DNA of 42,215 nucleotides, from positions 1-42,215 of the forward strand of contig JAGALB010000049.1 in the NCBI GenBank assembly GCA_017625405.1, written 5' to 3'. A model generated the notes under the pieces. It was not told the DNA's origin. It did not search any database and saw nothing but the letters and a program-made list of their open reading frames with translations. Made by a program: the position numbers and the translations under genes. Source of the stretch: Ruminiclostridium sp. (GTDB lineage Bacteria; Bacillota; Clostridia; Oscillospirales; Ruminococcaceae). Positions 1 to 31,117 of the stretch are shown here, one piece after another. The number at the start of each line of letters is the position of its first letter. Position 1 is the first letter of the stretch.

Positions 1-205
1 ATTTATCGGAGGAAACCTTTCTGAAGAAAGGTTCTCCCCCGTACCCCCTTCCAAAGACTTTTAATATCAATTACAGCCTGACAGGTTTACCCTGCCAGGC
101 TGTAATTAATATTTGAAGTTTTAGGAAAGGAGTTTGAGGAAAAACCCTTTTTCAAAAGGGTTTCCCTCAATAATATATATAATATTTCTATACGAACCGC
201 TGTCT
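1..205 (+). mobile_element. Foldback MITE-like element, copy 1 (left end outside the window)
   Basis: No coding capacity. The sequence is a chain of inverted repeats: a small hairpin at 14-33 (AACCTTTCT/AGAAAGGTT), a central palindrome at about 70-110 (ACAGCCTG...CAGGCTGT), and a third hairpin at about 136-170 (AAACCCTTTT/AAAAGGGTTT). The right end CGAACCGCTGTCT is followed by TA (206-207). It aligns without gaps to the reverse complement of copy 2 with 5 mismatches in 205 bases, counted by eye. Comparison with copy 2 puts the missing left terminus 31 bases before base 1. It lies downstream of cdaR. TA flanks and TIRs suggest mobilisation in trans by an IS630/Tc1-mariner-type transposase; no transposase is in the window. 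Confidence 0.85.
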
Positions 206-220
206 TACAACTGCGGGGTT
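206..220 (-). terminator. One arm of the cdaR terminator, probably split by element copy 1
   Basis: TA (206-207) followed by CAACTGCGGGGTT (208-220) abuts the element. By analogy with copy 2, where ACTGCGGGATTTTT sits in the same place and pairs with its complement beyond the other end, this should be the first arm (read on the minus strand) of the cdaR terminator. The partner arm should lie just outside the window, left of the missing terminus. Confidence 0.5.
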
Positions 221-235
221 AATTATATTATAATA

Positions 236-1549
236 TCAATATCCAGGTGTCAGTGCGTCAACATCCTCGGGAGGAAGTGAAATCTGGATTTCAACCTTGT
301 ATTCCTCGCCTGTTACCCAGCCTCTGCTGTTTGTACCCGAAAGACGGAAGGAGACAGATACGCTCTTTGTGCCTTCGGAAAGCTCAACGCCAAGGAGATT
401 TACAGTTGCATAAATATCATCGGATGTCATTTCCTGGATGTAGGAAGAAAGGCCTACAACGTTGACTGTAAGGACATTCGTAAGCACCTTTACATCAAAA
501 TTGTTCGGTGCATTGATAACGTTGATGTTTTCAGCAGGAACTGTAAAGCCCAGCTGACCGTATTCGTCATAGTTTTCAAAATAAACGGTTACGGTCTTAT
601 TGCCTGAAATATTCTTGTAGCCGTCGGGAAGCTTCACAGGAAGCGCTACACCGCCCTGGAGATCCTTGAGAGTGAGGGATGTAAGAGAAATTTCTCCTAT
701 ATCTATTGCATCAAGGTTGTCAATGGAGCTGTCAGGTGAAGCAATTGTAAGCTCGGTAACCGACATTGAATACTTGAGATTTGAAATATTGAAGTTTGTG
801 GAAGAGTTTGTGAACTGAACATTGAGAGGAAGCGTCTTGACCTTGTATACAGGCACATTCATCGAAATATTGCCTTCGCTTAATGCAAGGTCGTCATTGA
901 GCATTCTCATTCCGTACTGATTATAAAGAACAGGAGTGCAGATAAGCTCGGCACTTTCACCGAGAACATCCTCATAATCAGGCACCGCCTTGATATGGCC
1001 GATGGAATTTACAAGCTTTTCCTCGCCTGTAACTATGATAGTTGACGGGAAAACCTCAACCTTACCTTCAATCTGCATTCCGTCAGCAATTTTTATTCCG
1101 TCGGTATACGCCGCAACCTCAATTTCACGGGAAATAATCTTGGAAACATTTACCTTTGCAGTAAGATTATCCGCAAGTATTTCACATTCAGTTGCAGAAT
1201 CTGCTGTTTCAACAACTATATCAACATCGTGTACACCGGCTTCATAAATCTTGGAAAGATCACAATGCGCAACAAAGTCTTCACCCTTGAGGTCGCTGAT
1301 AGAATAACGCTTGCCCTGGATTTTGATGGTAACCTCAGATACATCAACGGAGGTTATCTGAAGATTCTCGTTAATCATATGCTGTGTGGGCTTGCATTCT
1401 ACCTTTACATCGGATATATGCTGTGTGATATTGGGGAATATCTGTATTGAAATGAAAAACCAGATTATTACCGAAGCGATTACCGCCTGAAGTATAGTTT
1501 TCAGATTGGTAAGGAGTTTTGAAGTGAATTTTTTGAAAAAGTTATTCAT
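236..1549 (-). CDS. cdaR: CdaR, YbbR-domain membrane regulator of diadenylate cyclase
   Basis: A 437-residue protein with one N-terminal membrane segment (about residues 17-36), then a long extracellular part made of repeated YbbR-type beta-rich modules (about 50-430). It has no catalytic motifs. CdaR is known to bind the membrane diadenylate cyclase CdaA and tune c-di-AMP output. The start overlaps the end of cdaA by 8 bases, the usual coupled order cdaA-cdaR. In many Firmicutes glmM follows; here the gene is followed instead by a foldback element and the window edge, so the presence of glmM cannot be judged. Identification rests on the repeated fold pattern plus the overlap with cdaA. Confidence 0.93.
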   Translation of the reverse strand: MNNFFKKFTSKLLTNLKTILQAVIASVIIWFFISIQIFPNITQHISDVKVECKPTQHMINENLQITSVDVSEVTIKIQGKRYSISDLKGEDFVAHCDLSKIYEAGVHDVDIVVETADSATECEILADNLTAKVNVSKIISREIEVAAYTDGIKIADGMQIEGKVEVFPSTIIVTGEEKLVNSIGHIKAVPDYEDVLGESAELICTPVLYNQYGMRMLNDDLALSEGNISMNVPVYKVKTLPLNVQFTNSSTNFNISNLKYSMSVTELTIASPDSSIDNLDAIDIGEISLTSLTLKDLQGGVALPVKLPDGYKNISGNKTVTVYFENYDEYGQLGFTVPAENINVINAPNNFDVKVLTNVLTVNVVGLSSYIQEMTSDDIYATVNLLGVELSEGTKSVSVSFRLSGTNSRGWVTGEEYKVEIQISLPPEDVDALTPGY

Positions 1550-2423
1550 TTACTTCTCCCCCCTTCTTCTTTCTGCGTGACTGCTTCTCCTTTTTACGCT
1601 GCTCTGCAGGTTCGGGAAGAAGTCTGTTTCTCAGGTGGAGTGTAAGCTTGTCACGGTCAAAGCCTCTTTCAAGAACGCCGTTCTCAGCAATGGAAATCAT
1701 ACCCGTTTCCTCTGAAACAATAATAACAATTGCGTCAGAAACCTCGCTCATGCCTATTGCTGCACGGTGACGTGAGCCAAGCTCCTTGTTGATAAGCTCC
1801 TCCTTCTGGGGCTTCGGCAGGAAGCATCCTGCGGCATAAATCAGATTGTCACGTATAATTACCGCACCGTCATGGAGAGGTGTGTTGGGAAAGAAAATAT
1901 TTCTGAAAAGCTCTTCACTGGGTACAGCCTTGATAATTGTACCTGTTTCAATCTGCTCGCCCAGCTTTGTCTGGCGTTCTACAACGATAAGCGCACCTGT
2001 TGCTGTACGTGAAAGCTTTTCACAGGCAAGGGCAATCTGATTGATTGCAGCCATACAGCCTGTTTCATCAGCTGTTACTGTTTCAAAAAGCGTAATAGGC
2101 TTTACCACCTTCGCACGTCCGACTTTTTCAAGTGCACGGCGCAGTTCAGGCTGGAACATAACTATAAAGGCTATGATAGAAACGTTGAAAAGCGTATCGC
2201 TTATAACGCTCATAACCTTGAATTCAAACTGATTAAGGAAGAAAAGTGCGACAGCGAAAAGCGCAATACCTTTAAGCAGCTGTTCCGCACGGGTTTCCTT
2301 GATGATTTTTATAACAAAATAAAGGATAAAAGAGAGAAGCACTATGTCCAGTACATCAACAAAGGTCATTGAGCTGAATACATTGACAAGTGCATCCCAT
2401 ATATCCACAAGATAATTAATCAA
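1542..2423 (-). CDS. cdaA: CdaA, membrane-bound diadenylate cyclase (c-di-AMP synthase)
   Basis: A 293-residue protein that joins two ATP into c-di-AMP, which controls osmolyte transport and wall homeostasis. Three hydrophobic segments lie in about residues 10-95, followed by a DisA_N/DAC domain with the signature DGAVII...AAGCFLP and the RHRAAIGMSE motif that binds ATP. A Lys/Arg-rich tail ends the protein. The start is TTG at 2423: a TAA stop lies immediately upstream in frame and AAGGGTG precedes it by about 6 bases. It is transcribed with cdaR. The matching phosphodiesterase gdpP is 6 kb away on the other strand. Confidence 0.96.
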   Translation of the reverse strand: MINYLVDIWDALVNVFSSMTFVDVLDIVLLSFILYFVIKIIKETRAEQLLKGIALFAVALFFLNQFEFKVMSVISDTLFNVSIIAFIVMFQPELRRALEKVGRAKVVKPITLFETVTADETGCMAAINQIALACEKLSRTATGALIVVERQTKLGEQIETGTIIKAVPSEELFRNIFFPNTPLHDGAVIIRDNLIYAAGCFLPKPQKEELINKELGSRHRAAIGMSEVSDAIVIIVSEETGMISIAENGVLERGFDRDKLTLHLRNRLLPEPAEQRKKEKQSRRKKKGGEVNE

Positions 2424-2459
2424 TTACAACACCCTTACATATTTAAAATACCTTATTAT

Positions 2460-2487
2460 ATTTTACCACATATTTTAAAAATTTCAA
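2460..2487 (-). promoter_or_regulatory. Promoter of cdaA-cdaR
   Basis: On the minus strand TTGAAA (2487-2482) is followed after 16 bases by TAAAAT (2465-2460), about 36 bases before the TTG start. The surrounding 2424-2546 is AT-rich with no other feature; no c-di-AMP riboswitch-like structure was recognised. Confidence 0.55.
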
Positions 2488-2546
2488 GTGTTTTAATGCA
2501 TTTTCAGTAAATTTTGTTCATATTTTTTTGAATTATGCCCAGAAAC

Positions 2547-3686
2547 CTATAAAACATCGGCGGTTATTCTCGAAATAGCTCTTATAAGCCCGTTTGTTTC
2601 GCTCATTGTGCTGAACACCGACGGCGAAAATCGCACTGCACCTGTTTCATGTGTGCCGATTTTCTTATGAACAGGATATGCACACTGAAAACCGCCTCTC
2701 AGGCAATACCCTGCACTGCTCAGCTTCTGTGCGGTTTCCTCCGAGCCAAGCCCCCTGATGTTGAACGGTATTACAGGAGCATATCGTTCATTGAGATAAT
2801 CCGTATACAGTACGACATCGGGATTTTTTGACAATTCTACGTAAAATCTGCGGCACAGCCTCATTTCGTGGTTATAAATCACATCAAGACCCTTGCTGCG
2901 TACAAAGTCAACGCCCGCTCCCAAAGAAATCGCTCCTGCAGTGTTTATCGTACCGCTTTCAAAACGGTCAGGGAGAAATTCAGGCTGTGAAAGCTCCTTC
3001 GAAGCGCTTCCTGTCCCGCCCTCAACCAGAGTTGAAAGACGGTATTTTCCGTCTGTTATCATAAGCCCTGTTCCCATAGGGCCGTAAAGTCCCTTATGAC
3101 CTGCCGCACAGATTATATTTATGCCGTCTGCAAGCTTAATCGGCAGAACTCCTGCGCCCTGCGCCGCATCCACAATAAAGCATATATTTCTGCGCCGGCA
3201 TATCTCCGCAATTTTCTTTACAGGAAGTATCTTTCCCGTAACATTACCAGCAAGCGTGCAGACAACGGCTCTCGTTCTGCGGTTTATATTCCTTTCAAAG
3301 GCTTCGGCAGTCAGATTGTCATCATCATAGGTCTGTGCAAAAGAATAGGTTATCCCCTTTTCCTTTGAACAGGCGTATATCGGACGCAGTACAGCATTAT
3401 GCTCAATATCGCTGCATACAATGTGATCACCGTTTTTAAGTATTCCTTTTATAGCCATATTAAGTGCGTGAGTGCAATTAAGGGTGAAAACGGTGTTTTC
3501 CGTTTCAGCTCCGAAAAAATCAGCGCACTTTTCTCTTGCTTCAAACACCGCTTCCGCCGTTTTCATGGACATTCTGTGTCCTGCCCTTCCCGGGTTTGCA
3601 CCGTATTCCATAAGCGCACCCGTCATGGCGGAAATTACCGAATGGGGCTTCGGAAAAGTAGTTGCGGCATTATCAAAATATACCAT
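2547..3686 (-). CDS. Class V aminotransferase, cysteine desulfurase family (EF2568-type)
   Basis: A 379-residue PLP enzyme. It has the N-terminal YFDNAATT motif, the PLP-binding H-K pair in AAGHKGLYGP (Lys198) and a C-terminal catalytic-type cysteine in RGGFQCA. It ends with the HKKIGT stretch seen in the cysteine-desulfurase-like subfamily that is distinct from IscS/SufS. It probably releases sulfur (or selenium) from cysteine. The start ATG is one base after the stop of the DUF3343 gene, so the two are translated together. No scaffold, thiI or selD gene is next to it, so the acceptor pathway is unknown. Confidence 0.88.
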   Translation of the reverse strand: MVYFDNAATTFPKPHSVISAMTGALMEYGANPGRAGHRMSMKTAEAVFEAREKCADFFGAETENTVFTLNCTHALNMAIKGILKNGDHIVCSDIEHNAVLRPIYACSKEKGITYSFAQTYDDDNLTAEAFERNINRRTRAVVCTLAGNVTGKILPVKKIAEICRRRNICFIVDAAQGAGVLPIKLADGINIICAAGHKGLYGPMGTGLMITDGKYRLSTLVEGGTGSASKELSQPEFLPDRFESGTINTAGAISLGAGVDFVRSKGLDVIYNHEMRLCRRFYVELSKNPDVVLYTDYLNERYAPVIPFNIRGLGSEETAQKLSSAGYCLRGGFQCAYPVHKKIGTHETGAVRFSPSVFSTMSETNGLIRAISRITADVL

Positions 3687-3687
3687 T

Positions 3688-3894
3688 TCAGTTTTTTATC
3701 TTTCCGCAGCGTATGTTTACCGCCGACAGCAGTCTGCATACCCTTTCGGGATTTTCATACACACGTATTCCATAGCTGCATCCGCCCCCTGATGCACCCT
3801 TTTCAACTTCAGCGTTGATTTTTATAGAACGCAGATACCTTGCGGCACGGTTTGCCTCGGTATATGATGCAAGATTTATAAAATAAGATTTCAT
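3688..3894 (-). CDS. DUF3343 protein, putative sulfur/selenium carrier-like
   Basis: A 68-residue cytosolic protein with a small alpha/beta fold, a conserved cysteine in GGGCSYGI near residue 39 and two further cysteines near the C-terminus (CRLL, RCGK). Length and the GGCSYG motif match DUF3343, which is often annotated as Se/S-carrier-like and found beside class V desulfurases. It directly precedes such a gene here, one base apart. A role as persulfide acceptor is inferred from the neighbour and the cysteine. The start is supported by AAAGGA 9 bases upstream. Confidence 0.8.
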   Translation of the reverse strand: MKSYFINLASYTEANRAARYLRSIKINAEVEKGASGGGCSYGIRVYENPERVCRLLSAVNIRCGKIKN

Positions 3895-4015
3895 ACAATC
3901 ATTCCTTTCGTCAGAACTCCTTACATTTTATGCCTGTAAAATATTTTTGTGCGGTATATTTGCCTTTGCTGTTACCATAATTATATTGATAAACATTACG
4001 AAAGGAATGATTAAA

Positions 4016-6253
4016 ATGAAAGCCGTCATACTTGCAGGCGGAGAAGGCAGCAGACTGCGCCCCATGACCTGTAATCTGCCGAAGCCTCTTGTCCCTGTGG
4101 CGGGAAAGCCTGTGCTTGAATATATCCTTGCTCTTCTCTCTGAAAACAATTGTGATGAAGCCGTAATTGCGGTGCATTACCGTTCAGAAAAAATAGAAAG
4201 ACATTTTTCTTCGGGCAGATTCATGGGGATAAAAATACGCTTTTCCCATGAAACAAAGCCTCTCGGTACGGCAGGCTGCGTAAAAAAGGCATCGGAAGGC
4301 TTTGAGGAGGATTTTGTAGTCATAAGCGGTGACGCTATATGCGATTTTGAGCTTTCCGAAGCACTGAATTTTCATAAAAAACACAGCGCTGACGCAACTA
4401 TAATAACAAAAAGAGTGGATGACCCGAGAGAATACGGTCTTATAATCGAAAAAAACAACAGAATAACTGATTTTTCGGAAAAGCCGTCCTACATCAATTG
4501 CCGCAGTGACCTTGCAAACACGGGCGTATATATTCTTTCGCCTGCAGTTCTTGAGCTTATACCTGAAAATGAGCCTTATGACTTTGCTAAAAATGTTTTT
4601 CCCGATATGCTGGGCAGGAACATGAAGCTTATGAACTATGAAGAAAAGGGATACTGGTGCGATATGGGGGATATCCCTGCGTACAAACGGTGTACGGAGG
4701 ATATTTTAGAAGGCAGACTGAAAGGGTATGAGCCTAAGGAATGGCTGATAGGCGAAAACTGCATGATTGACCCCGAAGCATTCATATCAGGCAAAACCGT
4801 TATCGGCAGCAGCGTTTCGGTAGGACGTGGCGCAAAGCTGAGAAATGCAGTTGTTATGGACGGCGCATTTATCGGCGAAAACACAACCCTGAACGACTGT
4901 ATAATATGCTCTGACGCACACATCGGAAGCGGTGCAGCCGTATACGAAAATGCGGTGGTGGGAGAAGGAGCGCATATTGGCGAAAATGCTGTAATATGCG
5001 GAAATATCAGAATCTGGCAGGATAAAACCGTCGAAAACGGAGCTTTTGTAAACAGCGACAGAAAATACGGTGTGCGCAGTCCTGTTGAAATAACCGAGGA
5101 CGGTATCTGCGGCGAAACCAATACCGTTATCACTCCTGAATTTGCAGGAAAGCTCGGCTGTGCTGTATCACGGATTGCAGGCTCATACATTGCTGTTGCC
5201 TGTGGCAATGACAATGCGGCGGAAACCCTGAAAAACGCTTTATTAAGCGGCATTTCAAGCACAGGAAAACAATGCTTCGACTGCGGAAATGCAAGTCTGC
5301 CTGTGCTGCTTCATACAGCTTCTCTCCTTAATTGCAGTCTTGTTGTTCATATAGATTCAAAAACAAGAACAGATATCCTGATTTACAACAGCGGTATGCT
5401 GCCACTTACAAGGGTGCAGGAAAGACTGCTGGAGAATGCACTTAACCGTGGGGAATACCTGAGTGCAAGCTGGAACAATTTCAGCTGTATAAACAAATTC
5501 ACCGGGGCAATACCGCTGTACAACGCCATGCTGGAAGGTATAACCGATTTCACGGTTCCCTTTCATATAACCCTGAATTGTATGAACGATTCTGCTTCGG
5601 TATGTCTGCCCTATGCCGCAAAAATCGGCACAGGAAAAGCAGAACTGACAATTACACTAAGTGAAAGGCTTACCAAGGCTGAAATTGCCGATAATAAAGG
5701 AAATGTGATTGATTATGACTCCATGATTATGCTTGCGGTAATGTCAAAACTGAGGAAAGGCGCAGAAACCGCACTTCCCTTTGCTTTTCCGAGGGTAGCA
5801 GACGTGATGGCGGAACAGCTGGGCGGAAAGATACACCGCTTTTATGCAAGCTCAATGGATAACCGTGACGCCGAGGCACGGCGTATTGCCGCTGAGGAGA
5901 AATTCCTGTACGACGGATTTGTCCTTGCGGTGCAGGTGCTGAAATTTATTTCAGAGAATAAACTGACAATACCCGAAGCTCTTGAACTGCTTCCGAAATT
6001 TTCAGAAATCAGGAAATTCATTTACATTTCCTGTCCGCCGCAGAAAATACTGGGCAGAATAAGCGGTGACACCTCAGAAAGTGAAGGGGTGGTGATTTCG
6101 GGGGACGGTGAACGTATTTTCCTGCGTTCAAACAAAAAAGGAAACGGACTTTATATGTTTGCCGAAAGCGCCAGCAGCGAAACCGCAGCAGAGCTTTGTG
6201 CAAAAACGGAAAAGCTTATAAAAGACATCATGAAGGACGGCGGACAATCATAA
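4016..6253 (+). CDS. Sugar-1-phosphate nucleotidyltransferase fused to a degenerate phosphohexomutase domain
   Basis: 745 residues from the ATG at 4016, chosen because AAAGGA sits 9 bases upstream and the N-terminus then reads MKAVILAGGEGSRLRP; an upstream in-frame ATG at 3947 has no such support. Residues 1-235 are an NTP-transferase domain with GGEGSRLRPMT and LPKPLVPVAGKP. Residues about 250-345 are left-handed beta-helix hexapeptide repeats. Residues about 365-745 follow the layout of a phosphomannomutase/phosphoglucosamine mutase, but the active-serine loop (usually TASHNP) reads DSKTRTD near 445. The metal loop (usually DGDxDR) reads LSERLTK near 547, and the sugar and phosphate loops are also changed. 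It probably makes an NDP-sugar, with the C-terminal half as a non-catalytic or regulatory module. Confidence 0.82.
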   Translation: MKAVILAGGEGSRLRPMTCNLPKPLVPVAGKPVLEYILALLSENNCDEAVIAVHYRSEKIERHFSSGRFMGIKIRFSHETKPLGTAGCVKKASEGFEEDFVVISGDAICDFELSEALNFHKKHSADATIITKRVDDPREYGLIIEKNNRITDFSEKPSYINCRSDLANTGVYILSPAVLELIPENEPYDFAKNVFPDMLGRNMKLMNYEEKGYWCDMGDIPAYKRCTEDILEGRLKGYEPKEWLIGENCMIDPEAFISGKTVIGSSVSVGRGAKLRNAVVMDGAFIGENTTLNDCIICSDAHIGSGAAVYENAVVGEGAHIGENAVICGNIRIWQDKTVENGAFVNSDRKYGVRSPVEITEDGICGETNTVITPEFAGKLGCAVSRIAGSYIAVACGNDNAAETLKNALLSGISSTGKQCFDCGNASLPVLLHTASLLNCSLVVHIDSKTRTDILIYNSGMLPLTRVQERLLENALNRGEYLSASWNNFSCINKFTGAIPLYNAMLEGITDFTVPFHITLNCMNDSASVCLPYAAKIGTGKAELTITLSERLTKAEIADNKGNVIDYDSMIMLAVMSKLRKGAETALPFAFPRVADVMAEQLGGKIHRFYASSMDNRDAEARRIAAEEKFLYDGFVLAVQVLKFISENKLTIPEALELLPKFSEIRKFIYISCPPQKILGRISGDTSESEGVVISGDGERIFLRSNKKGNGLYMFAESASSETAAELCAKTEKLIKDIMKDGGQS

Positions 6254-6273
6254 GCTGCATATATACAATTATA

Positions 6274-6302
6274 TTGACATTTTCCTGATTTTGTTATATA
6301 AT
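6274..6302 (+). promoter_or_regulatory. Consensus promoter of the RNase J operon
   Basis: TTGACA (6274-6279), a 17-base spacer and TATAAT (6297-6302), a perfect sigma-A consensus. It lies about 218 bases upstream of the RNase J start, so the mRNA should carry a leader of about 210 nt. Confidence 0.85.
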
Positions 6303-6410
6303 TGATAATGAATTGCTATGTTTAATAACAGAATGAATCTGTTGAATTAATATATTTATTTCGTACGGTGTATGAATCCTTATATAACCGTTTTTACGGT
6401 TAAAAAACAA

Positions 6411-6471
6411 TACAGCGGTCAGCAGAACAGGCAGTACCGTCTTTTGCCTGTCTACAACATCTGCCGCTGTA
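6411..6471 (+). promoter_or_regulatory. Structured 5' leader of the RNase J mRNA
   Basis: A two-tier hairpin. The outer arms are TACAGCGG (6411-6418) and CCGCTGTA (6464-6471), the inner arms ACAGGCA (6427-6433) and TGCCTGT (6445-6451). A smaller hairpin AACCG/CGGTT lies at about 6386-6402. No U-tract follows, so it is not an obvious terminator. It ends about 48 bases before the start codon. No known riboswitch class is recognised. Feedback control of RNase J on its own message is a possibility only. Confidence 0.5.
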
Positions 6472-6519
6472 CATAATATCAATCAATAACACATACGCAC
6501 GAAAAAGAAAAGAGGAAAA

Positions 6520-8439: not shown

Positions 8440-8471
8440 TTTTATAATCTCCGCTGAAAGGAGTGTTTTGT

Positions 8472-10445: not shown

Positions 10446-10461
10446 GAAAGGAATAAATAAA

Positions 10462-10905: not shown

Positions 10906-10939
10906 TCCCCTTAATAAAAAAGGGAAAGGAATGATAAAA

Positions 10940-15967: not shown

Positions 15968-16074
15968 TTTCAACCAGAATGTTAAGATTTTTCCATAAAG
16001 TGCAAATAAAAACACAGTTTATTCAAGGAGATTACAAAAATAACAAACAGGTGATGTAAAGATTATGATAAATA

Positions 16075-16111
16075 TGTTATTTTTTAATTACCGAAATAAA
16101 TTCAGAAAGGA
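16075..16111 (+). promoter_or_regulatory. Promoter -10 and leader shared with the surface-protein gene at 18216
   Basis: Extended -10 TGtTATTTT (16075-16083), a 3-base gap, then a 25-base leader (16087-16111) ending in AGAAAGGA. The 25 bases are identical to the reverse complement of 18838-18862, which has the same spacing to its own extended -10. No clear -35 is seen. Confidence 0.6.
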
Positions 16112-18148: not shown

Positions 18149-18160
18149 TAATAAAAAAGA

Positions 18161-18187: not shown

Positions 18188-18215
18188 CCGTTTTTATTAT
18201 TTAATTTACAGTTGC

Positions 18216-18827
18216 TTACTTTCTTTTCTTTGTAACTGCTACTGCAGCTGCACTTAATGCAAAACCGAGACCGCTGAGGCCAACGCCTGTTGTGGGGTTA
18301 TCAGAACCACCCTTGGGTGCTTCAGGTGCAGCTTCGGGTGCAGCTTCGGGTGCAGCTTCAGGTGCAGCTTCGGGAAGAGTTTCATCATTGGAAACTGTAA
18401 GTTCGCCGAGTGTAATGCCGTGACCCATGAATGCAAGACCTGCAATCTGGATGTGTTCAATCTGATCAGCGGGGAAGCAGAACTTGATTTCTGTACCGTC
18501 AACGGGAACTACATAAGAGCTGCCGTCTTCGGAAGGTGTAAGACCCTTGATGTTTTCAACTAAAGGCCAGCCTGCGTCATTGATCATGGGCTTGATTACC
18601 CAGTATTCGTGACCAGGCATATCAGCAAGAGAAGGATCAGCAGTGTATGTGATTGTGATTACGGAATCTTCGGTAATTCCTTCAAATTCACTGCCGGGAA
18701 CAGTTGTGCTGATGCTCCAGCCTGTCTTTAAATCCTTGTTGAGTTCGTAAGCGGACGCACTTACTGCGAATGTTGCCACTGCAACTGCTGCTGCAGCGAT
18801 TACGGATAATACTTTTCTGATTTTCAT
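18216..18827 (-). CDS. Secreted surface protein with NPTTG sorting signal and PEAA repeats
   Basis: 203 residues from ATG at 18827 (AAAGGAA 9 bases upstream; a longer in-frame start at 18875 lacks support). A Sec signal peptide (about 1-26, ending SASA) is followed by a beta-rich domain of about 115 residues resembling bacterial carbohydrate-binding or cellulose-associated modules. Then come PEAA repeats (about 152-172) and a C-terminal sorting signal: NPTTG, a hydrophobic stretch and a KKRK tail. It is likely anchored to the wall by a sortase. Binding of plant glycans is inferred from the neighbours (GH5, GH16, sugar-binding lipoprotein) and a shared promoter leader. Confidence 0.8.
   Translation of the reverse strand: MKIRKVLSVIAAAAVAVATFAVSASAYELNKDLKTGWSISTTVPGSEFEGITEDSVITITYTADPSLADMPGHEYWVIKPMINDAGWPLVENIKGLTPSEDGSSYVVPVDGTEIKFCFPADQIEHIQIAGLAFMGHGITLGELTVSNDETLPEAAPEAAPEAAPEAAPEAPKGGSDNPTTGVGLSGLGFALSAAAVAVTKKRK
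18325..18372 (-). repeat. Four 12-bp tandem repeats encoding the PEAA linker
   Basis: Units starting at 18325, 18337, 18349 and 18361 read GGTGCAGCTTC(G/A), encoding Pro-Glu-Ala-Ala on the minus strand. The repeat number may vary between strains by slippage without breaking the frame. Confidence 0.85.
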
Positions 18828-18837
18828 AATGAGTAAT

Positions 18838-18874
18838 TCCTTTCTGAATTTATTTCGGTAATCATATAATAGCA
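18838..18874 (-). promoter_or_regulatory. Promoter -10 and leader duplicated from the lipoprotein gene at 16121
   Basis: On the minus strand, extended -10 TGCTATTAT (18874-18866), a 3-base gap, then the 25-base leader 18862-18838 identical to 16087-16111. The 12 bases before the -10 also match with two differences (ATCATAATTATG against ATGATAAATATG). Confidence 0.6.
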
Positions 18875-18934
18875 TAATTATGATATGATTTATGACAGCT
18901 GGTTGTCATTTTTGTAATATGATTGAACAAATGA

Positions 18935-18962: not shown

Positions 18963-18966
18963 ACTA

Positions 18967-19920: not shown

Positions 19921-19959
19921 ATTGTTTCCAGCCTTTCTGAAATATTCTTATGGTAACAG

Positions 19960-20012: not shown

Positions 20013-20039
20013 CTATGTTATGCAATTATAGCAAGATAG

Positions 20040-20068
20040 TTGCATTAATGACAAATTTTTGATATAAT
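20040..20068 (+). promoter_or_regulatory. Promoter of the licheninase gene
   Basis: TTGCAT (20040-20045), a 17-base spacer and TATAAT (20063-20068), 57 bases upstream of the start. A second TATAAT at 20086-20091 has no well-placed -35. Confidence 0.75.
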
Positions 20069-20125
20069 AACCTTGGCAGAAATGATATAATTTTGTTAAA
20101 ACTAAGGATAACGGAGGTTATACAC

Positions 20126-20938: not shown

Positions 20939-20979
20939 GTCAAAGCAATCGGCTGTAATCAATGCAAGGAGATGATATG

Positions 20980-21717: not shown

Positions 21718-21728
21718 ATATATTTTTG

Positions 21729-21764
21729 GAACAGCACTTTTTTCAAAGTGCTGTTCTTTGCTTT
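21729..21764 (+). terminator. Terminator after the AraC regulator
   Basis: Perfect 12-bp stem GAACAGCACTTT (21729-21740) with AAAGTGCTGTTC (21745-21756), loop TTTC, then a T-rich tract. Confidence 0.92.
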
Positions 21765-21780
21765 TTAAATTATTACAATT

Positions 21781-21821
21781 TGTAACTTTTCAGAAAAAAC
21801 TGTAATAATATTGTAACTTTT
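21781..21821. promoter_or_regulatory. Candidate Pho-box-like repeats upstream of the PstS-like gene
   Basis: TGTAACTTTT occurs at 21781-21790 and 21812-21821, with TGTAAT at 21801. On the minus strand these read TTACA repeats, two of them 11 bases apart as in PhoP boxes; the third is off by about two bases. They lie directly upstream of the -35. Weak evidence. Confidence 0.3.
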
Positions 21822-21827
21822 AAAATA

Positions 21828-21855
21828 TTGACTTTAAAAATATGAGTGATATAAT
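21828..21855 (+). promoter_or_regulatory. Promoter of the PstS-like lipoprotein gene
   Basis: TTGACT (21828-21833), a 16-base spacer and TATAAT (21850-21855), 36 bases before the start. Confidence 0.75.
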
Positions 21856-21891
21856 TAAAATACAGAAATAAAAATGAGGAGAGCCTTTGCT

Positions 21892-24192: not shown

Positions 24193-24198
24193 TATTTA

Positions 24199-24226
24199 AA
24201 AGCGGCTCATCACGGGCCGCTTTTAT
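24199..24226 (+). terminator. Terminator after the PstS-like gene
   Basis: Stem AAAGCGGC (24199-24206) with GCCGCTTT (24216-24223), then a T-rich tail that touches the next promoter. Confidence 0.85.
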
Positions 24227-24255
24227 TTGACATTAAATGCCTGATATGATATAAT
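24227..24255 (+). promoter_or_regulatory. Perfect-consensus promoter of the M28 peptidase gene
   Basis: TTGACA (24227-24232), a 17-base spacer and TATAAT (24250-24255), 31 bases before the start. Confidence 0.9.
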
Positions 24256-24286
24256 TTAACAGTTAAAAATATATAAGGAGAGTTTT

Positions 24287-26602
24287 ATGTCAAAGACAAG
24301 GAAATTAATATGTGTGGTTTTTTCACTGCTGCTGTGCCTTTCGTTCACGCTGTCGCTTATTGACACCGCTGAACTGCCTGTAAGCTCAGATTTCAACCAC
24401 GAAAACATCTATTCCCATATCGGAAAAATGTGCGAAATGGGTCCTCACTCAATTTTAAACAAGGAAGAAAACAAGCAGGTTGAGGAATATATAATATCCG
24501 AGCTTGAAAAGCTGGGAATTGTAAATTCCGATACTACCGAAGCACCTGCATATCTTGTTCAGGAGTTTATTACAAAAGCTCCCAGATATTCACCCTTCTA
24601 CCTTGATAACATAATCGTACACATTCCTGCAAATGCGGCCGAAAAAACAGGTCAGGCGGTAATGACAATGGCGCATTTTGACTCTGTTGCCACAGGACAG
24701 GGCGCATCTGACGACGTTATGGCGTGCGGCACCATGCTGGAAGCAATACGCTATTACCTTGACAAAATGGAAAAGGGCTACACTATTTCAAATGACCTTG
24801 TGTTCTGCTTTGTAAACGGCGAAGAATACGGACTGCTCGGCTCAGAAGCCTTTATGGCTGAGTTCACAGGATTCGATAACCTTGTTGAACGCATCAACTT
24901 CGCAATCAACCTTGAAGCAAGAGGCACTTCTGGCACACAGATAATGTTTGAAACCTCAGAAAACAACTACAATACCGTAAAGTTATTCTGCGAGGTGAAT
25001 AAAAACGTCTTCACCTGCTCTATCGCCACAATGATTTATAACGAAATGCCCAACGGTACGGACTTCTCAAATTACAAGGATTTCTATCAGGGCGTCAATA
25101 TGGCAAATATTGCAGAGGGCGAAAATTATCACACCCAGAACGACAGTCCTCAGAATATAAGCGAGAGCGCTCTCACCCAGCAGGCGCAGATTATAAACAG
25201 ACTGCTTGACAAGCTGGGTAATTATGACCTTGATTCCCTTTATGAAGCAGAGGAAAACGCAATTTTCTTCTCTTACCTGAATATAGGCGATGTGGTATAT
25301 AACCACACTGTTTCGGTTATTCTTGCGGTAATCGGTATTTTACTGCTTATAGCAAATATTGTTCTTTCTGTAATTTACAAAAAGAAAAATCTTGTTAAAA
25401 CTTTAAAATCAATACCGATTATTATTATCGGACTTGCCCTCACAGCCGGAATCACCTATGGCTGCTGCTACCTGTTCCAGCTTATTGCCGCAATTGCAGG
25501 CAACATTGATTTCCATGCTATCGGCAGAATTTCATACACAAATAACGCAATAAGCGCAGGTATCGCTTTGCTCGCACTCGGCACCACTACCCTTACAGCA
25601 TATTTCGGCTGCAGACTGTTCAAAATTACAGGCGAGGATATAAGAAGGGCTTTTTCCTACATTCATATACTCCTCGGAGTTGTTCTGACATTCGTTATAC
25701 CCGATGCAAGCTATCTCTTTATTTTCAGCGGTCTTATGCTGATGGTATATGAGGTTACTGTTACGGTAAAGCCGCAGCTTTCCGCATATCACGCCGAACT
25801 GCTTATTGAAGCGGTTTATCTGCCTGTTGTAATGCCAATTATTACAATTGCTGCTTCTGCCCTGGGCCTTGAAATGGCGTATATTTACGGTGTTCTGTTC
25901 GCTCTCACAACATTCGGCATAGCAAGCTGTATTGCTCCCGTCTGCGGTTATTTCTCGATAAATATGCTCCTCAGAAAGGACAAGAGCAAACCCGTTGCGG
26001 GCTGGGTCGGCGCAGTGCATATTATCGCTGCATCGTTTGCTGTCTTCCTTTGCGTAAGCCTTTCAGGATACAGCATTCATTCCGATCTCACCGACGGCTT
26101 CAGCCATATGGATGATGACGCACTTATATATTCAACCGACAATGAAAGCTTTTACAGCTACTATGTATTTGACCTGAACGCATATAAGGAACTGAAAAAA
26201 TACGCTCCTGAAATGGAATACGTCGATTATGAATACGGCTATTTTGCTGAAACCGAGAAGAAGGAGCTTGGAATTTCTTCATTGATAACCGCCGAAGGCA
26301 GAACGATTGATTTAAAACGTGCCCATGAGGATTCCTGTATCAGAATCAACCTCGAAACCTCCGGTGCCGAGTCCTTTACAATTGACGACGGAACAGCCGT
26401 ACAGACTATTGAAATCCCCGAGCATGGATATACATATGTGCTGGTATACAACGACTGTACATTGACGCTGAACGGTGGCACGGGAACAGCTTATACTACG
26501 GAATACATTGTGGATTACCCTCCGCTTATTCCCGAAAATTACAATCCCGACGAAAAGCTTCATTTCAATTTATGGCTCTGGAAGCAGTTTGAGCTTGCAT
26601 GA
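24287..26602 (+). CDS. M28-family zinc aminopeptidase with multi-spanning membrane domain
   Basis: 771 residues. A hydrophobic N-terminal segment (about 5-27) leads into an extracytoplasmic M28 domain. Metal ligands are visible: His and Asp in AHFDSV (about 129-131), Asp in GASDDV, the Glu pair in NGEEYG (about 178) and a late His in NYHTQND (about 281). About eight membrane helices follow (about 340-620), then a beta-rich soluble domain to the end. The layout recalls eukaryotic ERMP1 and vacuolar Pff1 proteases, an M28 domain at the front of a polytopic membrane part. AAGGAGAG lies upstream. It probably trims peptides outside the cell membrane; the substrate is unknown. Confidence 0.87.
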   Translation: MSKTRKLICVVFSLLLCLSFTLSLIDTAELPVSSDFNHENIYSHIGKMCEMGPHSILNKEENKQVEEYIISELEKLGIVNSDTTEAPAYLVQEFITKAPRYSPFYLDNIIVHIPANAAEKTGQAVMTMAHFDSVATGQGASDDVMACGTMLEAIRYYLDKMEKGYTISNDLVFCFVNGEEYGLLGSEAFMAEFTGFDNLVERINFAINLEARGTSGTQIMFETSENNYNTVKLFCEVNKNVFTCSIATMIYNEMPNGTDFSNYKDFYQGVNMANIAEGENYHTQNDSPQNISESALTQQAQIINRLLDKLGNYDLDSLYEAEENAIFFSYLNIGDVVYNHTVSVILAVIGILLLIANIVLSVIYKKKNLVKTLKSIPIIIIGLALTAGITYGCCYLFQLIAAIAGNIDFHAIGRISYTNNAISAGIALLALGTTTLTAYFGCRLFKITGEDIRRAFSYIHILLGVVLTFVIPDASYLFIFSGLMLMVYEVTVTVKPQLSAYHAELLIEAVYLPVVMPIITIAASALGLEMAYIYGVLFALTTFGIASCIAPVCGYFSINMLLRKDKSKPVAGWVGAVHIIAASFAVFLCVSLSGYSIHSDLTDGFSHMDDDALIYSTDNESFYSYYVFDLNAYKELKKYAPEMEYVDYEYGYFAETEKKELGISSLITAEGRTIDLKRAHEDSCIRINLETSGAESFTIDDGTAVQTIEIPEHGYTYVLVYNDCTLTLNGGTGTAYTTEYIVDYPPLIPENYNPDEKLHFNLWLWKQFELA

Positions 26603-26610
26603 CCCGATAT

Positions 26611-26880
26611 AAAAATCCCGCAGTCTTAAGGCAGCGGTTCGTATAGAAATATTATATATATTATTGAGGGAAACCCTTTTGAAAAAGGGTTGTTCCTCAA
26701 ACTCCTTTCCTAAAACTTCAAATATTAATTACAGCCTGGCAGTGTAAACCTGTCAGGCTGTAATTGATATTAAAAGTCTTTGGAAGGGGGTACGGGGGAT
26801 AACCTTTCTTCAGAAAGGTTTCCTCCGATAATTACATATAAAACTTCTATATGAGCACCGTTCTTAACTGCGGGATTTTT
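26611..26880. terminator. Bidirectional terminator split by element copy 2
   Basis: AAAAATCCCGCAGT at 26611-26624 pairs perfectly over 14 bp with ACTGCGGGATTTTT at 26867-26880. Between them lie CT, the TA duplicate and the element. Without the element and one TA the site reads as a 14-bp stem with loop CTTA and A5/T5 flanks, a standard terminator for the M28 gene and the converging chemoreceptor gene. Confidence 0.85.
26629..26864 (-). mobile_element. Foldback MITE-like element, copy 2 (complete, 236 bp)
   Basis: Bounded by TA at 26627-26628 and 26865-26866. Read on the minus strand the ends are AGAACGGTGCTCATATAGAAG and the complement of AGGCAGCGGTTCGTATAGAA, imperfect terminal inverted repeats sharing the TATAGAA block. 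Almost the whole length folds back on itself, with three nested hairpins. There is no open reading frame. It lies between converging genes. Confidence 0.88.
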
Positions 26881-26898
26881 ATTGTAACAGTTTCAGAT

Positions 26899-28617
26899 TT
26901 ATTCATCGTCAACAACTTCTTCATCAATCTGTTCTGCATCACGAAGTGTAAACTGGCTTACAAGATCACGGCAGGTATTGGACTGAGCTGAAAGCTGTTC
27001 GCTGGCTGCCGCGGTTTCTTCAGCAGTTGCGCTGTTGTTCTGTACAACGATTGAAATTCTGTCAACGCCGGATGTAACCTGTCTGATAGCGTCAGCCGCT
27101 TCACCGGAAGACTTTGCAATCTTTCCGTTGATAACAGAAATCGCATCTGCGGCATCAGAAACGGAATTCATTCTTTCTGCCACATCATTTACAAGGTTGT
27201 TACCACGTTCAATGGCTGCAACTGTGTTTTCGATAAGTGCTGTTGTGTTGTTTGCAGCTTCCGCAGACTTTCCAGCGAGGTTTCTTACTTCATCAGCAAC
27301 TACCGCAAAGCCCTTGCCCGCATCACCTGCACGTGCAGCTTCAACAGCAGCGTTAAGAGCTAAGATATTTGTCTGGAATGCAATATCTTCAATAGTCTTG
27401 ATAATCTTCTTGGTTTCATCGGAGGAAGCACTGATTTCATCCATAGCCTTTACAAGTTCATTCATCATATCATTTGCACGTGCAACCTGCTCGCCTGCAA
27501 AGCTTGTACGTTCTGTTGCTTCAACGGAATCCGCAGCATTGGATTTAATCATTTCGGAAATAAGGCTGATTGTTGCGGAAAGCTCCTGAATTGAGGAAGC
27601 CTGGTCAGTTGCACCCTGAGAAAGTGTTGAGGAAGCGGAGGATACCTGGCTTGCACCGCTGTCAACCTGCTGAGCCGCAATATTGATTTCGGAAAGTGTT
27701 GCACTGAGCTTCTGATTGATTACACGGATTGATTCGAGAATCTGTGTGTAATCACCCTTATAGCTGTCTGCACAGCTTGAATCAAGACGGAAATTACCTT
27801 CAGACATTTCGCTGAGTATATAATTGATATCATCAATAATCTGAATCTGTGTTCTCTGGAAATAATTGATTGCCTTGACTGTCTTGCCGATTTCGGTATC
27901 ATTTTCGGGGTAATCCATCGCATCACGCATATTGCCCTCTGCGAAATCGAGCATCTTTTCTTCAATCTTGAGAATAGGACTGATAAGCTGTCTCAGAACG
28001 AACAGCATAAGTACAACCTGTACTGCAAGAGTAACAACAAGTGCGACATATGTAAAGACATCCGCAACAGCTATCATGTTCTGATCGTAGACTATTCTTT
28101 CCTGCATTCTTGAGCTGAGCAGATTTTCAAATTCATCAAGCTGTGTGGAAAGCTTGTCCATATATTCTTCATATTCGTCACAATAGATATTGATTGATGC
28201 AGCATTTGTATCGCCGTTCTTTGCAAGTGCTGCGGAATCCTCTTCGATAATCGCAAGCTGCTCGCCTGTTGCAATAATCGCTTCGATCATTGCGATTTCA
28301 TCTTCATAAAGACCTGTTTCATACATTTTTGAAATGCTTTTTTCACGGCGCATATCGGTCTTCTTTTCCTTGAGATAAGCGTCATAGTATGCCTGGTCAC
28401 CTGTTACGGCATATGCACGCACTTCTCTGATGAGAAATTCCGAAGCGCTGCGGTACTGCTCACAGCAGGAATAAAGATCATATTCCTGTCTGAATGCGGT
28501 ATTCAGACGTGCATCAAGAGATTGAACGGTAAGAGTACCCAGAAAGCATATGCAAACCATAACAATTGAAAGTATAGTAAGAATTTTCGCCAGAGTTGAC
28601 TGTTTTACATTAGCCAT
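26899..28617 (-). CDS. Methyl-accepting chemotaxis protein
   Basis: 572 residues: membrane helix 1 (about 8-30), a helical extracellular sensor of the four-helix-bundle type (about 35-180), helix 2 (about 183-208), HAMP (about 209-262) and a long coiled-coil signalling domain. Its hairpin tip contains [22 protein letters not shown] (here split for length: [13 protein letters not shown], then AAVEAARAG) near 412-433. It reports chemical cues to CheA/CheW. No other chemotaxis gene is near, and there is no CheR-tethering pentapeptide; the tail is acidic. It has its own promoter and is likely monocistronic. Confidence 0.95.
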
Positions 28618-28654
28618 AACGAAATACCTCGCTTAGTGTGTTATATTTACAATA

Positions 28655-28683
28655 ATTATACCATTATTTTCTTCAAAAGTAAA
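28655..28683 (-). promoter_or_regulatory. Promoter of the chemoreceptor gene
   Basis: On the minus strand TTTACT (28683-28678), a 17-base spacer and TATAAT (28660-28655) with the TGG extended -10. Confidence 0.75.
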
Positions 28684-28742
28684 GTTATAAATACAAGTTA
28701 TATGACGAATTTTACCTCTTTTTATTGTTTATATTCACAATA

Positions 28743-28776
28743 AAAGCTTCCGTTTCCCGAGGGAAACGGAAGCTTT
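28743..28776 (-). terminator. Terminator after rubrerythrin
   Basis: Perfect 16-bp stem AAAGCTTCCGTTTCCC (28743-28758) with its complement at 28761-28776, loop GA. On the minus strand a short T-rich tract follows. Confidence 0.9.
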
Positions 28777-28799
28777 GCTATCAAACGTTCATTATCTGA

Positions 28800-29333
28800 T
28801 TAATAATTTTCCTTACGTACTTCAAAGAAGCTCTGGGGGTGAGCGCATACAGGACATACGCCGGGTGCCTTCTTGCCCATTACAAGATGACCGCAGTTGC
28901 GGCATTCCCACATGGTTTCTTCACTCTTTTCAAACACCTTCTGCATTTCAACATTGTTGAGAAGTGCACGGTAGCGTTCTTCATGGGACTTTTCAATCTT
29001 TGCAACTGCTCTGAACTTGAATGCAAGAGCTGTGAAGCCTTCTTCTTCAGCTTCCTTTGCAAAAGTGTCATACATATCTGTCCATTCGTAGTTTTCACCT
29101 TCAGCGGCAGCTAAAAGGTTCTGTGCTGTTGTGCCAAGCTCGCCTAGCTCCTTGAACCACATCTTTGCGTGTTCCTTTTCGTTGTTTGCTGTTGCTTCAA
29201 AAATTGCGGCAATCTGCTCGTAGCCTTCCTTTCTTGCTACAGAAGCAAAGTATGTGTACTTGTTTCTTGCCTGGGATTCGCCTGCAAAAGCAGCCATTAA
29301 GTTCTTTTCGGTTTTTGTTCCTTTGAGTTCCAT
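28800..29333 (-). CDS. rbr: Rubrerythrin
   Basis: A 177-residue non-haem diiron peroxidase of anaerobes that reduces hydrogen peroxide. The ferritin-like domain carries the Glu ligands in [18 protein letters not shown] and [10 protein letters not shown]. The C-terminal rubredoxin-like domain has CRNCGH and CPVCAHP, four cysteines for one iron. It lies 45 bases downstream of a Fur/PerR-family gene on the same strand, a peroxide-response pair. A good AAAGGAG lies upstream of the ATG. Confidence 0.97.
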
Positions 29334-29378
29334 AATTTGAGTTCTCCTTTGATGTTATTTTTTGCCTTTCGGCTTAAG

Positions 29379-29741
29379 TTACCATGTTCTGCATCCGGGG
29401 CAGATATAATGCACATTAAGGTCGTAGTGCGTTACTTTACTGCCGATTGATTTTTCCAGCGCTTCTCTGATACCGCCGGGATTTATGTCGGCAATACCGC
29501 CGCATTTATCACATATTGCGTGGTCATGAGGAATTATGTTCCTGTCGTAGAAATCTGCACCGTCGCTTACTCCGATTTTTCTGATATAATCATTATCGGA
29601 AAGATATTTAAGGTTGTTATAGACCGTCGCCATGGCAATGCCCGGCATTTCCGCCTTAGCCGCCATATAGATCTGTTCAGCATTCATATGCTCGCAGGTG
29701 TCGTTTATAACCTTCAATATAAGCTTTCGCTGTGCTGTCAT
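29379..29741 (-). CDS. perR: Fur-family regulator, probably PerR
   Basis: 120 residues: an N-terminal winged helix with ATVYNNLKYLSDN as recognition helix, then the dimerisation domain with HDHAICDKCGG and YICPGCRTW, the two CxxC pairs of the structural zinc site. The pairing with rubrerythrin argues for PerR (peroxide-sensing, iron- or manganese-loaded repressor) rather than Fur or Zur. A palindromic operator lies between its own promoter and start. AAAGGAGGGGTG precedes the ATG. Confidence 0.88.
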   Translation of the reverse strand: MTAQRKLILKVINDTCEHMNAEQIYMAAKAEMPGIAMATVYNNLKYLSDNDYIRKIGVSDGADFYDRNIIPHDHAICDKCGGIADINPGGIREALEKSIGSKVTHYDLNVHYICPGCRTW

Positions 29742-29764
29742 ATCACCCCTCCTTTAAATTAGAT

Positions 29765-29788
29765 TTAGAATTGTTCCAAATTCTTTAA
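29765..29788. promoter_or_regulatory. Candidate PerR operator
   Basis: AGAATT (29767-29772), six bases, AATTCT (29779-29784), within the longer TTAGAATT...AATTCTTTAA. It lies around the expected transcription start of perR, so it fits autorepression. It resembles, but does not equal, the Bacillus PerR box TTATAATnATTATAA. Confidence 0.5.
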
Positions 29789-29792
29789 TCAT

Positions 29793-29821
29793 ATATTACC
29801 ACAAATACTATCCTTTGTCAA
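29793..29821 (-). promoter_or_regulatory. Promoter of perR-rbr
   Basis: On the minus strand TTGACA (29821-29816), a 17-base spacer and TAATAT (29798-29793) with the TGG extended -10. Confidence 0.8.
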
Positions 29822-29914
29822 TAGTTTTTTGAAAATTTTTATATTTAAAAGTATTTTTTTAATTCAGATTCGGATAATATATCAGATACATTACAGATTG
29901 AAAGAGGTAACTTT

Positions 29915-30829
29915 ATGTGCACAAGCATTGCATTAACCGGAAACAAAGCTTTTTTCGGCAGAAATATGGATATTGATTACAGCTTCGGAGAATGCGCCGT
30001 CAATACACCACGAAGCTTCCCTCTTGCTTTCAGAACAGGGATAACCCTCGAAAAGCATTACGCATTCGCAGGAACGGCGGTTGTAACAGATAACTTTCCC
30101 CTGTATGCAGAAGCGATGAACGAAAACGGGCTTTACATCGCTGCTCTTAAATTTCCTGAAAATGCCTTTTATAACGAAACAGAAATAAAAGGAAAAATCA
30201 ATCTCGCTCCTTACGAAATAATACCTTTTATACTTGCTAAATGCCGTAATCTTAACGAAGTCAGAGCCTTATTATCAGAAATTGAAATAATTGCTCTTCC
30301 CTTTTCGGACAATATGCCATTATCGCCCCTTCACTGGCACATTGCAGACAAAAACGGCTCGCTGGTTCTTGAAAAAACAGCAGATGGTATGCATATCTAT
30401 GAAAATCCTGCAAATGTCCTTACAAACAATCCGCCCTTCCCTTTTCATCTTCATAACATAACGCATTATCAGAATCTTTCGTCTGAAAACCCGGATATCT
30501 CCGAAAAGAGAATGCTTGGTCTTGGTACTGTGGGGCTTGTCGGAGATTTCACCCCTGCATCCCGTTTTGTGAGAGCGGATTATCTGCTGAAAAACACTCC
30601 CGAAGACTGCATTGACGCAAATCACTTTTTTCATATTCTTGATAATGTCGCCATACCCAGAGGCGCTGTCAGAACACCTGACGGCAAATATCATTATACC
30701 AGTTACAGCTGTTGCTTTGATGCTGAAAAGCTTATTCTGTACTATCGCATATATGACTGCTTTCATGTGGAAGAAATGCCGCTTACAACGGAGGGAAACA
30801 ATCTTATTGTAAAAGAATATAAGAAATAA
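29915..30829 (+). CDS. Choloylglycine hydrolase family protein (C59, bile salt hydrolase or acylase)
   Basis: 304 residues, an Ntn hydrolase. Cys2 becomes the N-terminal nucleophile after Met removal. Other family residues are in place: Arg16 and Asp19 in FFGRNMD, Asn171/172 in LTNNPPF and Arg217 in TPASRFVRA. The loop usually reading GLNF in bile salt hydrolases is AALKF here (Lys79), so amide substrates other than conjugated bile acids, such as acyl-homoserine lactones or penicillin V-like amides, are possible. It is cytosolic with no signal peptide. AAAGAGG lies upstream of the ATG. It converges on the GH5 gene across an element-interrupted hairpin. Confidence 0.88.
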   Translation: MCTSIALTGNKAFFGRNMDIDYSFGECAVNTPRSFPLAFRTGITLEKHYAFAGTAVVTDNFPLYAEAMNENGLYIAALKFPENAFYNETEIKGKINLAPYEIIPFILAKCRNLNEVRALLSEIEIIALPFSDNMPLSPLHWHIADKNGSLVLEKTADGMHIYENPANVLTNNPPFPFHLHNITHYQNLSSENPDISEKRMLGLGTVGLVGDFTPASRFVRADYLLKNTPEDCIDANHFFHILDNVAIPRGAVRTPDGKYHYTSYSCCFDAEKLILYYRIYDCFHVEEMPLTTEGNNLIVKEYKK

Positions 30830-30839
30830 AAGACAAATC

Positions 30840-31117
30840 CCCCGACATAAGAACGGTACTCATATAGAAGCTTTATAAGTATTTATCGTGGGACACCTTT
30901 CTGTAGAAAGGTTATCCCCCGAACCCCCTTCCAAAGACTTTAATAATGATTTAAGCCTGACAGGGTAATTTACCCTGTCAGGCTTAAATTAAAATTAAAA
31001 GTTTTCGGAAAGGAGTCTGAGGAAAAGCCCTTTTACAAAAGGGTTTTCCTCAGTAATGCCTGTAAAGCTTCTATACGGATATCCACCTTATAAAGGGGCA
31101 CCCTTTATATGTCGGGG
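30840..31117. terminator. Hairpin split by element copy 3
   Basis: CCCCGACA (30840-30847) plus TA, followed beyond the element by TAAAGGG (31091-31097), GCA and CCCTTTATATGTCGGGG (31101-31117). Removing the element and one TA gives a perfect 17-bp stem with loop GCA. T-rich sequence on the minus-strand side suits termination of the GH5 gene; the plus-strand side is only AT-rich. Confidence 0.8.
30850..31088 (+). mobile_element. Foldback MITE-like element, copy 3 (complete, 239 bp, diverged)
   Basis: Bounded by TA at 30848-30849 and 31089-31090. The left end AGAACGGTACTCATATAGAAG differs from copy 2 at one base; the right end is more diverged but keeps CTTCTATACG. The central palindrome has a perfect 20-bp arm (ATTTAAGCCTGACAGGGTAA) where copies 1 and 2 read TACAGCCTG; both arms changed together, keeping pairing. 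The flanking hairpins CACCTTTCT/AGAAAGGT and CCCTTTT/AAAAGGG are also kept. No reading frame. Confidence 0.86.

Follow-up and report, generated by a model that had tools for sequence, protein, structure and literature searches.

Background

The transposon TnSha1, like the insertion sequence (IS) IS1272, enters DNA hairpins without primary sequence specificity, inserting bluntly, with partial deletion of the hairpin and without target duplication, and transcriptional terminators were confirmed at five of its seven target sites, according to the account given by Furi et al. (2016, PMC4923244). ISs of several families, such as IS1397, ISKpn1 and IS621, are described as targeting repetitive extragenic palindromic (REP) sequences (Tobes and Pareja 2006, PMC1525189). 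Here we analyze a family of short foldback elements, flanked by TA on both sides, of which three copies lie in a 42,215-nucleotide contig of Ruminiclostridium sp. (JAGALB010000049.1, the whole of which is referred to as the window); the genome to which this contig belongs (2.1 Mb in 64 contigs) is designated G000.

The element resembles IS1272 and TnSha1 (IS1182 family) in that it is found in hairpins and that terminators are among the targets (PMC4923244). However, those are described as full insertion sequences or transposons, whereas the present element is about 240 bp long and non-coding, has a TA at the hairpin apex, comes from genomes where no IS1182-type transposase was found, and shows no sign of partial hairpin deletion at the sites compared, which do not include a near-identical empty allele. 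It shares with the REP-targeting ISs the insertion in extragenic palindromes, but these are reported to recognize the repeated REP sequence (PMC1525189), while the hairpins targeted here vary by locus. TA-duplicating miniature inverted-repeat transposable elements (MITEs) of the IS630/Tc1-mariner type are likewise short and non-coding, with terminal inverted repeats and a TA on both sides (PMC10969869). The family studied here has the size and structure of MITEs, namely 236–239 bp, no coding capacity, terminal inverted repeats and many dispersed copies, but it differs from the IS630/Tc1-mariner type in that no DDE_3 domain was found in the genome and the target is the hairpin center, not just any TA or CTAG. 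The ribozymes known as group IIC introns also use terminator hairpins as targets and insert beside the hairpin; in contrast, the present element has terminal repeats and TA on both sides and sits in the hairpin tip.

Hairpin targeting itself is thus already known, and what is new here is the precision at the apex TA, the non-coding foldback form and the co-varying arms. The initial annotation spoke of an undescribed target rule; the rule mostly holds, but that wording is too strong given IS1272/TnSha1 and the REP-targeting ISs. We found no report of a non-autonomous, hairpin-extending variant with an apex TA in the literature searched, where most subscription journals fell outside coverage.

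Results

Copies in the window

We conclude that the family probably consists of small non-autonomous foldback (MITE-like) elements of Ruminococcus, whose preferred insertion site is a TA exactly at the tip of the hairpin of an intrinsic terminator, mostly one shared by two convergent genes. Dispersed copies lie in locus-specific arms, TA adjoins all young ends examined and lies at the hairpin center, and relatives carry plain terminators. The three TA-flanked copies that had been annotated in the window were confirmed by direct sequence slices, which were rechecked; the features, based on the slices unless otherwise indicated, are as follows.

1..205, minus strand: copy 1, subfamily A, 98% identical to copy 2 over 203 nt, with TA at 206-207
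208..222, plus strand: arm of the terminator on the right side of copy 1, CAACTGCGGGGTTAA
26611..26624, plus strand: left arm of the terminator split by copy 2, AAAAATCCCGCAGT
26627..26628, plus strand: left TA of copy 2
26629..26864, plus strand: copy 2, subfamily A, 236 bp, nearly a full palindrome, with ends AGGCAGCGGTTCGTATAGAAA and CTTCTATATGAGCACCGTTCT
26665..26699, plus strand: inverted repeat in copy 2, potential internal hairpin 1 (TGAGGGAAACCC..TTCCTCA)
26721..26771, plus strand: central hairpin of copy 2 (ATTACAGCCTG..CAGGCTGTAAT), the part that varies between genomes (slices and fold)
26793..26827, plus strand: inverted repeat in copy 2, potential internal hairpin 3 (CGGGGGATAACCTTTC..GAAAGGTTTCCTCCG)
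26865..26866, plus strand: right TA of copy 2
26867..26880, plus strand: right arm of the terminator split by copy 2, ACTGCGGGATTTTT
30840..30847, plus strand: left arm of the hairpin that holds copy 3, CCCCGACA
30848..30849, plus strand: left TA of copy 3
30850..31088, minus strand: copy 3, young subfamily B, 239 bp (slices and genome comparison)
31089..31090, plus strand: right TA of copy 3
31091..31107, plus strand: extra 17-nt hairpin TAAAGGGGCACCCTTTA between copy 3 and the outer right arm (slices and fold)
31110..31117, plus strand: outer right arm TGTCGGGG, partner of 30840-30847 (slices and fold)

The left part of copy 1 is missing because the window is the whole contig and the remainder lies beyond its end. 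When copy 2 is deleted together with one TA, AAAAATCCCGCAGT and ACTGCGGGATTTTT form a perfect 14-bp stem, exactly as had been claimed. The same operation on copy 3 gives the claimed stem of 17 bp, with the loop GCA, but here the TA falls within the stem and not in the loop. Copy 3 can alternatively be read as CCCCGACA-TA / TA-TGTCGGGG, in which case the outer arms pair flush and the hairpin at 31091-31107 is a side branch; this side-branch form is the one given by the RNA fold of the locus. Copy 3 is either an exception or a rearranged site. Occupied loci fold into one extended structure, with the arms of the old terminator closing it, as seen in the folds of copy 2 and copy 3 (fold z of -17.8 and -12.5, respectively), and within the minimum-energy fold of copy 2 the repeat of hairpin 1 pairs with hairpin 3 instead of closing on itself. 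The hairpin pattern around the copies in the window is beyond chance, and the prediction that the split arms come together again at the foot of a lengthened hairpin is borne out by both alignments and folds. The window has no match at gathering scores to the Rfam models of known structured RNA families.

Complementarity of the flanking arms

Both flanks could be read for 57 copies, comprising 27 from G000, 27 from the relative G066 and 3 from G009; the other 16 of 73 loci were excluded because of a contig edge or an incomplete core. For each copy, the complementarity between its two arms was scored by alignment and set against that of all pairs of arms from mismatched copies of the same genome. 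With whole arms, complementarity exceeds the 95% level of this control in 19/27 copies of G000, 21/27 of G066 and 3/3 of G009, where the control consists of six mismatched pairs only. In the alignments the stem of the element extends into the flanking DNA, often up to a T-rich tract, and the sequences of the target hairpins differ from locus to locus. The proposal of one mobile family residing in locus-specific hairpins is supported by many dispersed copies in different arms, and the outcome that would have spoken against it, most other copies lying outside inverted repeats, did not occur among these 57 copies when whole arms were compared, a minority without arms notwithstanding.

The terminal repeats also pair within copies: the observed sum was reached in 0 of 2,000 permutations of the arms, both for 22 subfamily-A copies of G000 and for 27 of G066. 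Since the within-copy pairing exceeds all 2,000 shuffles, the arms have co-varied, which either selection for pairing or correction of one arm by the other would bring about.

One terminator type (AACCCCGC..GCGGGGTT) recurs in G000 and is repeatedly a target (L004, L021, L077, L085 and L189). It is more symmetric when occupied than in the empty copy beside L021.

Position of the TA at young copies

Full-length copies of subfamily B, represented by copy 3, are 98–99% identical, whereas subfamily A (copies 1 and 2) is older and variable. To describe the young ends we used 17 of 22 left-end matches in G000 (four of subfamily A and one flankless match being excluded) and all 15 right ends. Every one of these ends is adjoined by TA. 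Most of them coincide with contig ends (13/17 left, 11/15 right), and four subfamily-B copies are intact within one contig; the arms pair around the TA in three of these and, in the simple reading, not in copy 3 of the window. When the orphan contig ends, 13 left and 11 right, are assigned to each other in the best way, nine pairs have a score of at least 12. Such a score occurs in 1/136 left-left and 1/105 right-right comparisons. The pair C40-C52 shares an internal deletion that is otherwise seen only in C55 among the contig ends compared, and by eye the orphan pairs of type A, L006/L025 and L017/L028, match as well. By a motif check, none of the 19 readable contig starts out of 20 fetched begins with the element.

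At 12 of 13 young sites (three intact copies and nine inferred joins) the TA is no more than 0.5 nt away from the center of the hairpin, and all 12 score at least 10; by comparison, outside elements only 6 of 9,924 TAs are the center of a hairpin with such a score. Choosing partners by similarity is circular with regard to the arms but less so with regard to the position of the TA. The 12 centered sites have 6–12 TAs each within 40 nt, and in 10 of them a single TA is central. When these sites are joined with one TA, the best loops measure 3–7 nt in eight and the remaining four are full palindromes. Under a strict search rule, the terminators without an element likewise show loops of 3–7 nt, with a TA in the loop in 4/21, and the loop sizes of the joined sites fit insertion without loss.

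Gene neighborhood

The niche was expected to lie mostly between convergent genes. According to a simple reading of open frames, this holds for 41 of 52 decidable copies, while 11 lie between tandem genes and none between divergent genes; orientation could not be decided for 5 of the 57 copies. In many cases the stop codons of both frames are at most about 25 nt from the position at which the flank had been trimmed for this reading. The convergent setting alone is not special, because the same excess is reported for many IS families, including IS630 and IS1182 (PMC9208149). The genes that adjoin the three window copies are ordinary (peptidase M28, chemotaxis receptor, choloylglycine hydrolase family, cellulase GH5 and YbbR).

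Element-free loci in relatives

Relatives without the element were expected to show plain terminators, and at the loci that could be compared they mostly do. At L003 in G000 the left gene ends with TAATAAAAAGCCTCCGCTGTCA, followed by the element and then by TGACAGCGGAGGTTTTTTA, while in G004, G066 and G009 a plain terminator comes after the end of the same gene, without the element. The hairpin at the empty site in G066, AAAAGCCTCTCG-GATAA-CGGGAGGCTTTTTT, has the stretch AAAAGCCTC in common and a TA in its loop, and by eye it is not longer than the joined hairpin of G000. Downstream of groEL, which was matched in 49 of 71 genomes (own included), 30 loci were read, one of which was too short. 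G000 and G066 both carry the element there, with different arm sequences; in the 27 other readable relatives the end motif is found in none, and a hairpin scoring at least 9 is present in 21 and not in 6.

Three more gene neighborhoods are occupied in both G000 and G066 (L002/L143, L012/L141 and L026/L140). These shared occupied neighborhoods would be explained equally by an old insertion common to both genomes or by independent insertions at the same position of the terminator. Two further comparisons with G004 were dropped, one as the empty site for copy 3 of the window, where synteny is broken, and one at the C38 site, before which the G004 contig ends.

The segment between copies L003 and L031 (L114:4477-8127, on contig C48 of G000) is inverted relative to G004 and G066, and elements lie at both of its ends in G000. 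Both sites keep matched arms, so that simple recombination between these copies does not explain the inversion.

Possible mechanism and alternative explanations

The precise centering suggests an enzyme that sees a symmetric apex. A transposase that is absent from the assembly, or that belongs to a family other than those searched, would recognize the symmetric or extruded apex of a hairpin and join the element there, with putative duplication of the TA or with the TA as a core. Because the element is nearly palindromic, its arms would then prolong the terminator stem while the oligo-A and oligo-T edges remain paired at the base, so that the site probably still terminates transcription. Within each copy the two arms co-vary, through pairing selection or arm-to-arm correction. 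We tentatively extend this to a broader possibility, which we hold with less than even confidence, that transposition reads DNA shape and not sequence, joining the element at the central TA of an extruded or nascent hairpin apex, so that the element splices itself into the stem, host terminators serve as a self-sealing niche and the joined arms are kept corrected towards pairing.

An IS1272-like process, in which a transposase that targets hairpins makes a blunt cut in each arm, possibly with loss of the loop and without any duplication, the TA belonging to the element, is the alternative that we consider unlikely rather than implausible. IS1272/TnSha1 is described as behaving in this manner in staphylococci (PMC4923244), blunt cutting also predicts near-perfect symmetry of both arms, and TA at all 32 young ends is as expected of a TA carried by the element. 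However, the corresponding DDE_Tnp_1_6 transposase was not found in three genomes, 8/12 centered sites retain unpaired bases around the TA in loops of the native size, and the G066 terminator at the L003 gene has a TA in its loop and, by eye, a hairpin no longer than the joined form. It is far less probable that the element inserts at any TA and that selection leaves only the harmless copies between convergent genes. The lack of any decidable copy between divergent genes and the convergent-gene excess in many IS families (PMC9208149) agree with such selection, but the other TAs close to each young site should be equally harmless, and yet the central one is used. We give similarly little credence to the idea that insertion came first and that the flanks became palindromic when one of them was copied in inverted form, whether through template switching at the base of the hairpin or through quasipalindrome correction. 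This would account for the co-variation of arms within copies and for some occupied sites being more symmetric than a similar native terminator (AACCCCGCAGTTGCAAAACGGCGGGGTT beside L021); against it, relatives have an element-free terminator downstream of the same gene, the arms show the A-tract/T-tract layout of terminators near stop codons, and the tips are unpaired at several young sites.

Several observations weigh against insertion at the hairpin tip itself. The TA of copy 3 lies 9.5 nt off the center of the strongest joined hairpin. With a fixed cut of 33 nt between end repeat and flank, only 16/27 copies in G000, 12/27 in G066 and 2/3 in G009 exceed the 95% control, although the ends of some copies are shorter than this, which makes the cut conservative. 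L029 and L036 in G000, of which only the core remains, have no outer arms, and in G066 the flanking hairpin is absent from L131 and L134 despite the presence of end repeats and is weak at L132. Arm similarity was the basis for selecting the joins at nine of the 13 young sites; a score of 12 is reached in 15/255 left-right comparisons, three of which are cross-matches outside the 12 accepted pairs, C16 scores 15 with C52 compared to 14 with its assigned partner C19, and four left and two right orphans have no good partner. At the empty site of L003 only the left gene is in common, the next segment being inverted in G004 and G066 relative to G000, and the hairpin there has diverged too far for a TA duplication to be demonstrated.

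The enzyme searches belong to the same side of the balance. The initial annotation had pointed to IS630 as the mobilizer, which the data do not support: DDE_3 has no match in the own genome, while the control search matches in 3/14 genomes. DDE_Tnp_1_6 (PF13751, IS1182 type) is absent from G000, G066 and G009, its control search matching in 4/14 genomes. A longer element with the same ends was not seen either, since end matches in G000, including 15/15 right ends, run into the same element, which is weak evidence in a fragmented assembly. Eight open frames from eight contig starts yielded no transposase in a Pfam scan, two of them having no family at all. The absence of a transposase is weak evidence, given that the assembly is fragmented and the IS630 and IS1182 families were those searched.

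If insertion at the hairpin tip is correct, terminators between facing genes are a safe harbor for mobile DNA that is located by shape and not by sequence, and the family offers a testable case of structure-directed DNA transposition. It would also suggest that a terminator is able to carry a 240-bp insert in its loop and would help to explain the breaks of the G000 assembly at element sites, where the pairing rule predicts which contig ends belong together.

Copy number, subfamilies and variants

The element is present at 40 distinct places in G000, some of which represent a single copy split into halves at the ends of contigs; the search gave 75 rows for these 40 places because the palindromic element also matches itself reversed. 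In G066 it occupies at least 40 places: the best 40 of 113 first-look candidates were scored and gave 40 distinct places plus two reversed self-matches, and 30 were fetched. Three nearly full-length copies were read in G009 (L042, L055 and L067). In a first sample of 60 genomes of the genus (own included), outside which G066 lay, 13 match the element, several by one 50-bp half only. The ends are of the TAAGNNCGGTRCTCATATAGAAG type, and inside the outer stem the order of hairpin 1, central hairpin and hairpin 3 recurs, with the central hairpin differing between genomes. The genome_contigs collection, a search of which may omit the own or a very near genome, contains one exact match to the end pattern, in a Ruminococcus assembly from water-buffalo omasum, with no longer element within the 1,001 bases read.

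A variant of subfamily B without the central hairpin (..CCTTCCAAAGGCTTAAATTAAAATTAAAAG..) occurs at three contig ends (L084, L090 and L091, on contigs C40, C52 and C55). Very short elements, with little beyond the terminal repeats, lie beside partial terminator-like arms at L098:3850-3960 and in L074 near position 1500. In relatives, a half-element (such as AAAGTCTTTGGAAAGGGG..GGGGGATAACCTTTCTTCAGAAAGGTTTCCCCC) is found at L046, L047, L048, L050, L053, L056, L057 and L062, often by a GCGAAGC-like sequence, and may be either a solo module or another element with this hairpin in common. The same inner hairpins also occur in long outer stems without the TATAGAAG end sequence at L043, L044, L049 and L058 (in G048, G005 and G034), the outer stem of L049 being at least 23 bp long and perfect by eye.

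Two further repeats were observed in the window. Positions 16018-16111 and 18838-18931 form a pair of 94-nt inverted repeats, 80% complementary and 2.7 kb apart, which the element does not match, and positions 18307-18383 contain a 12-bp tandem repeat, GCTTCGGGTGCA, within a listed reading frame.

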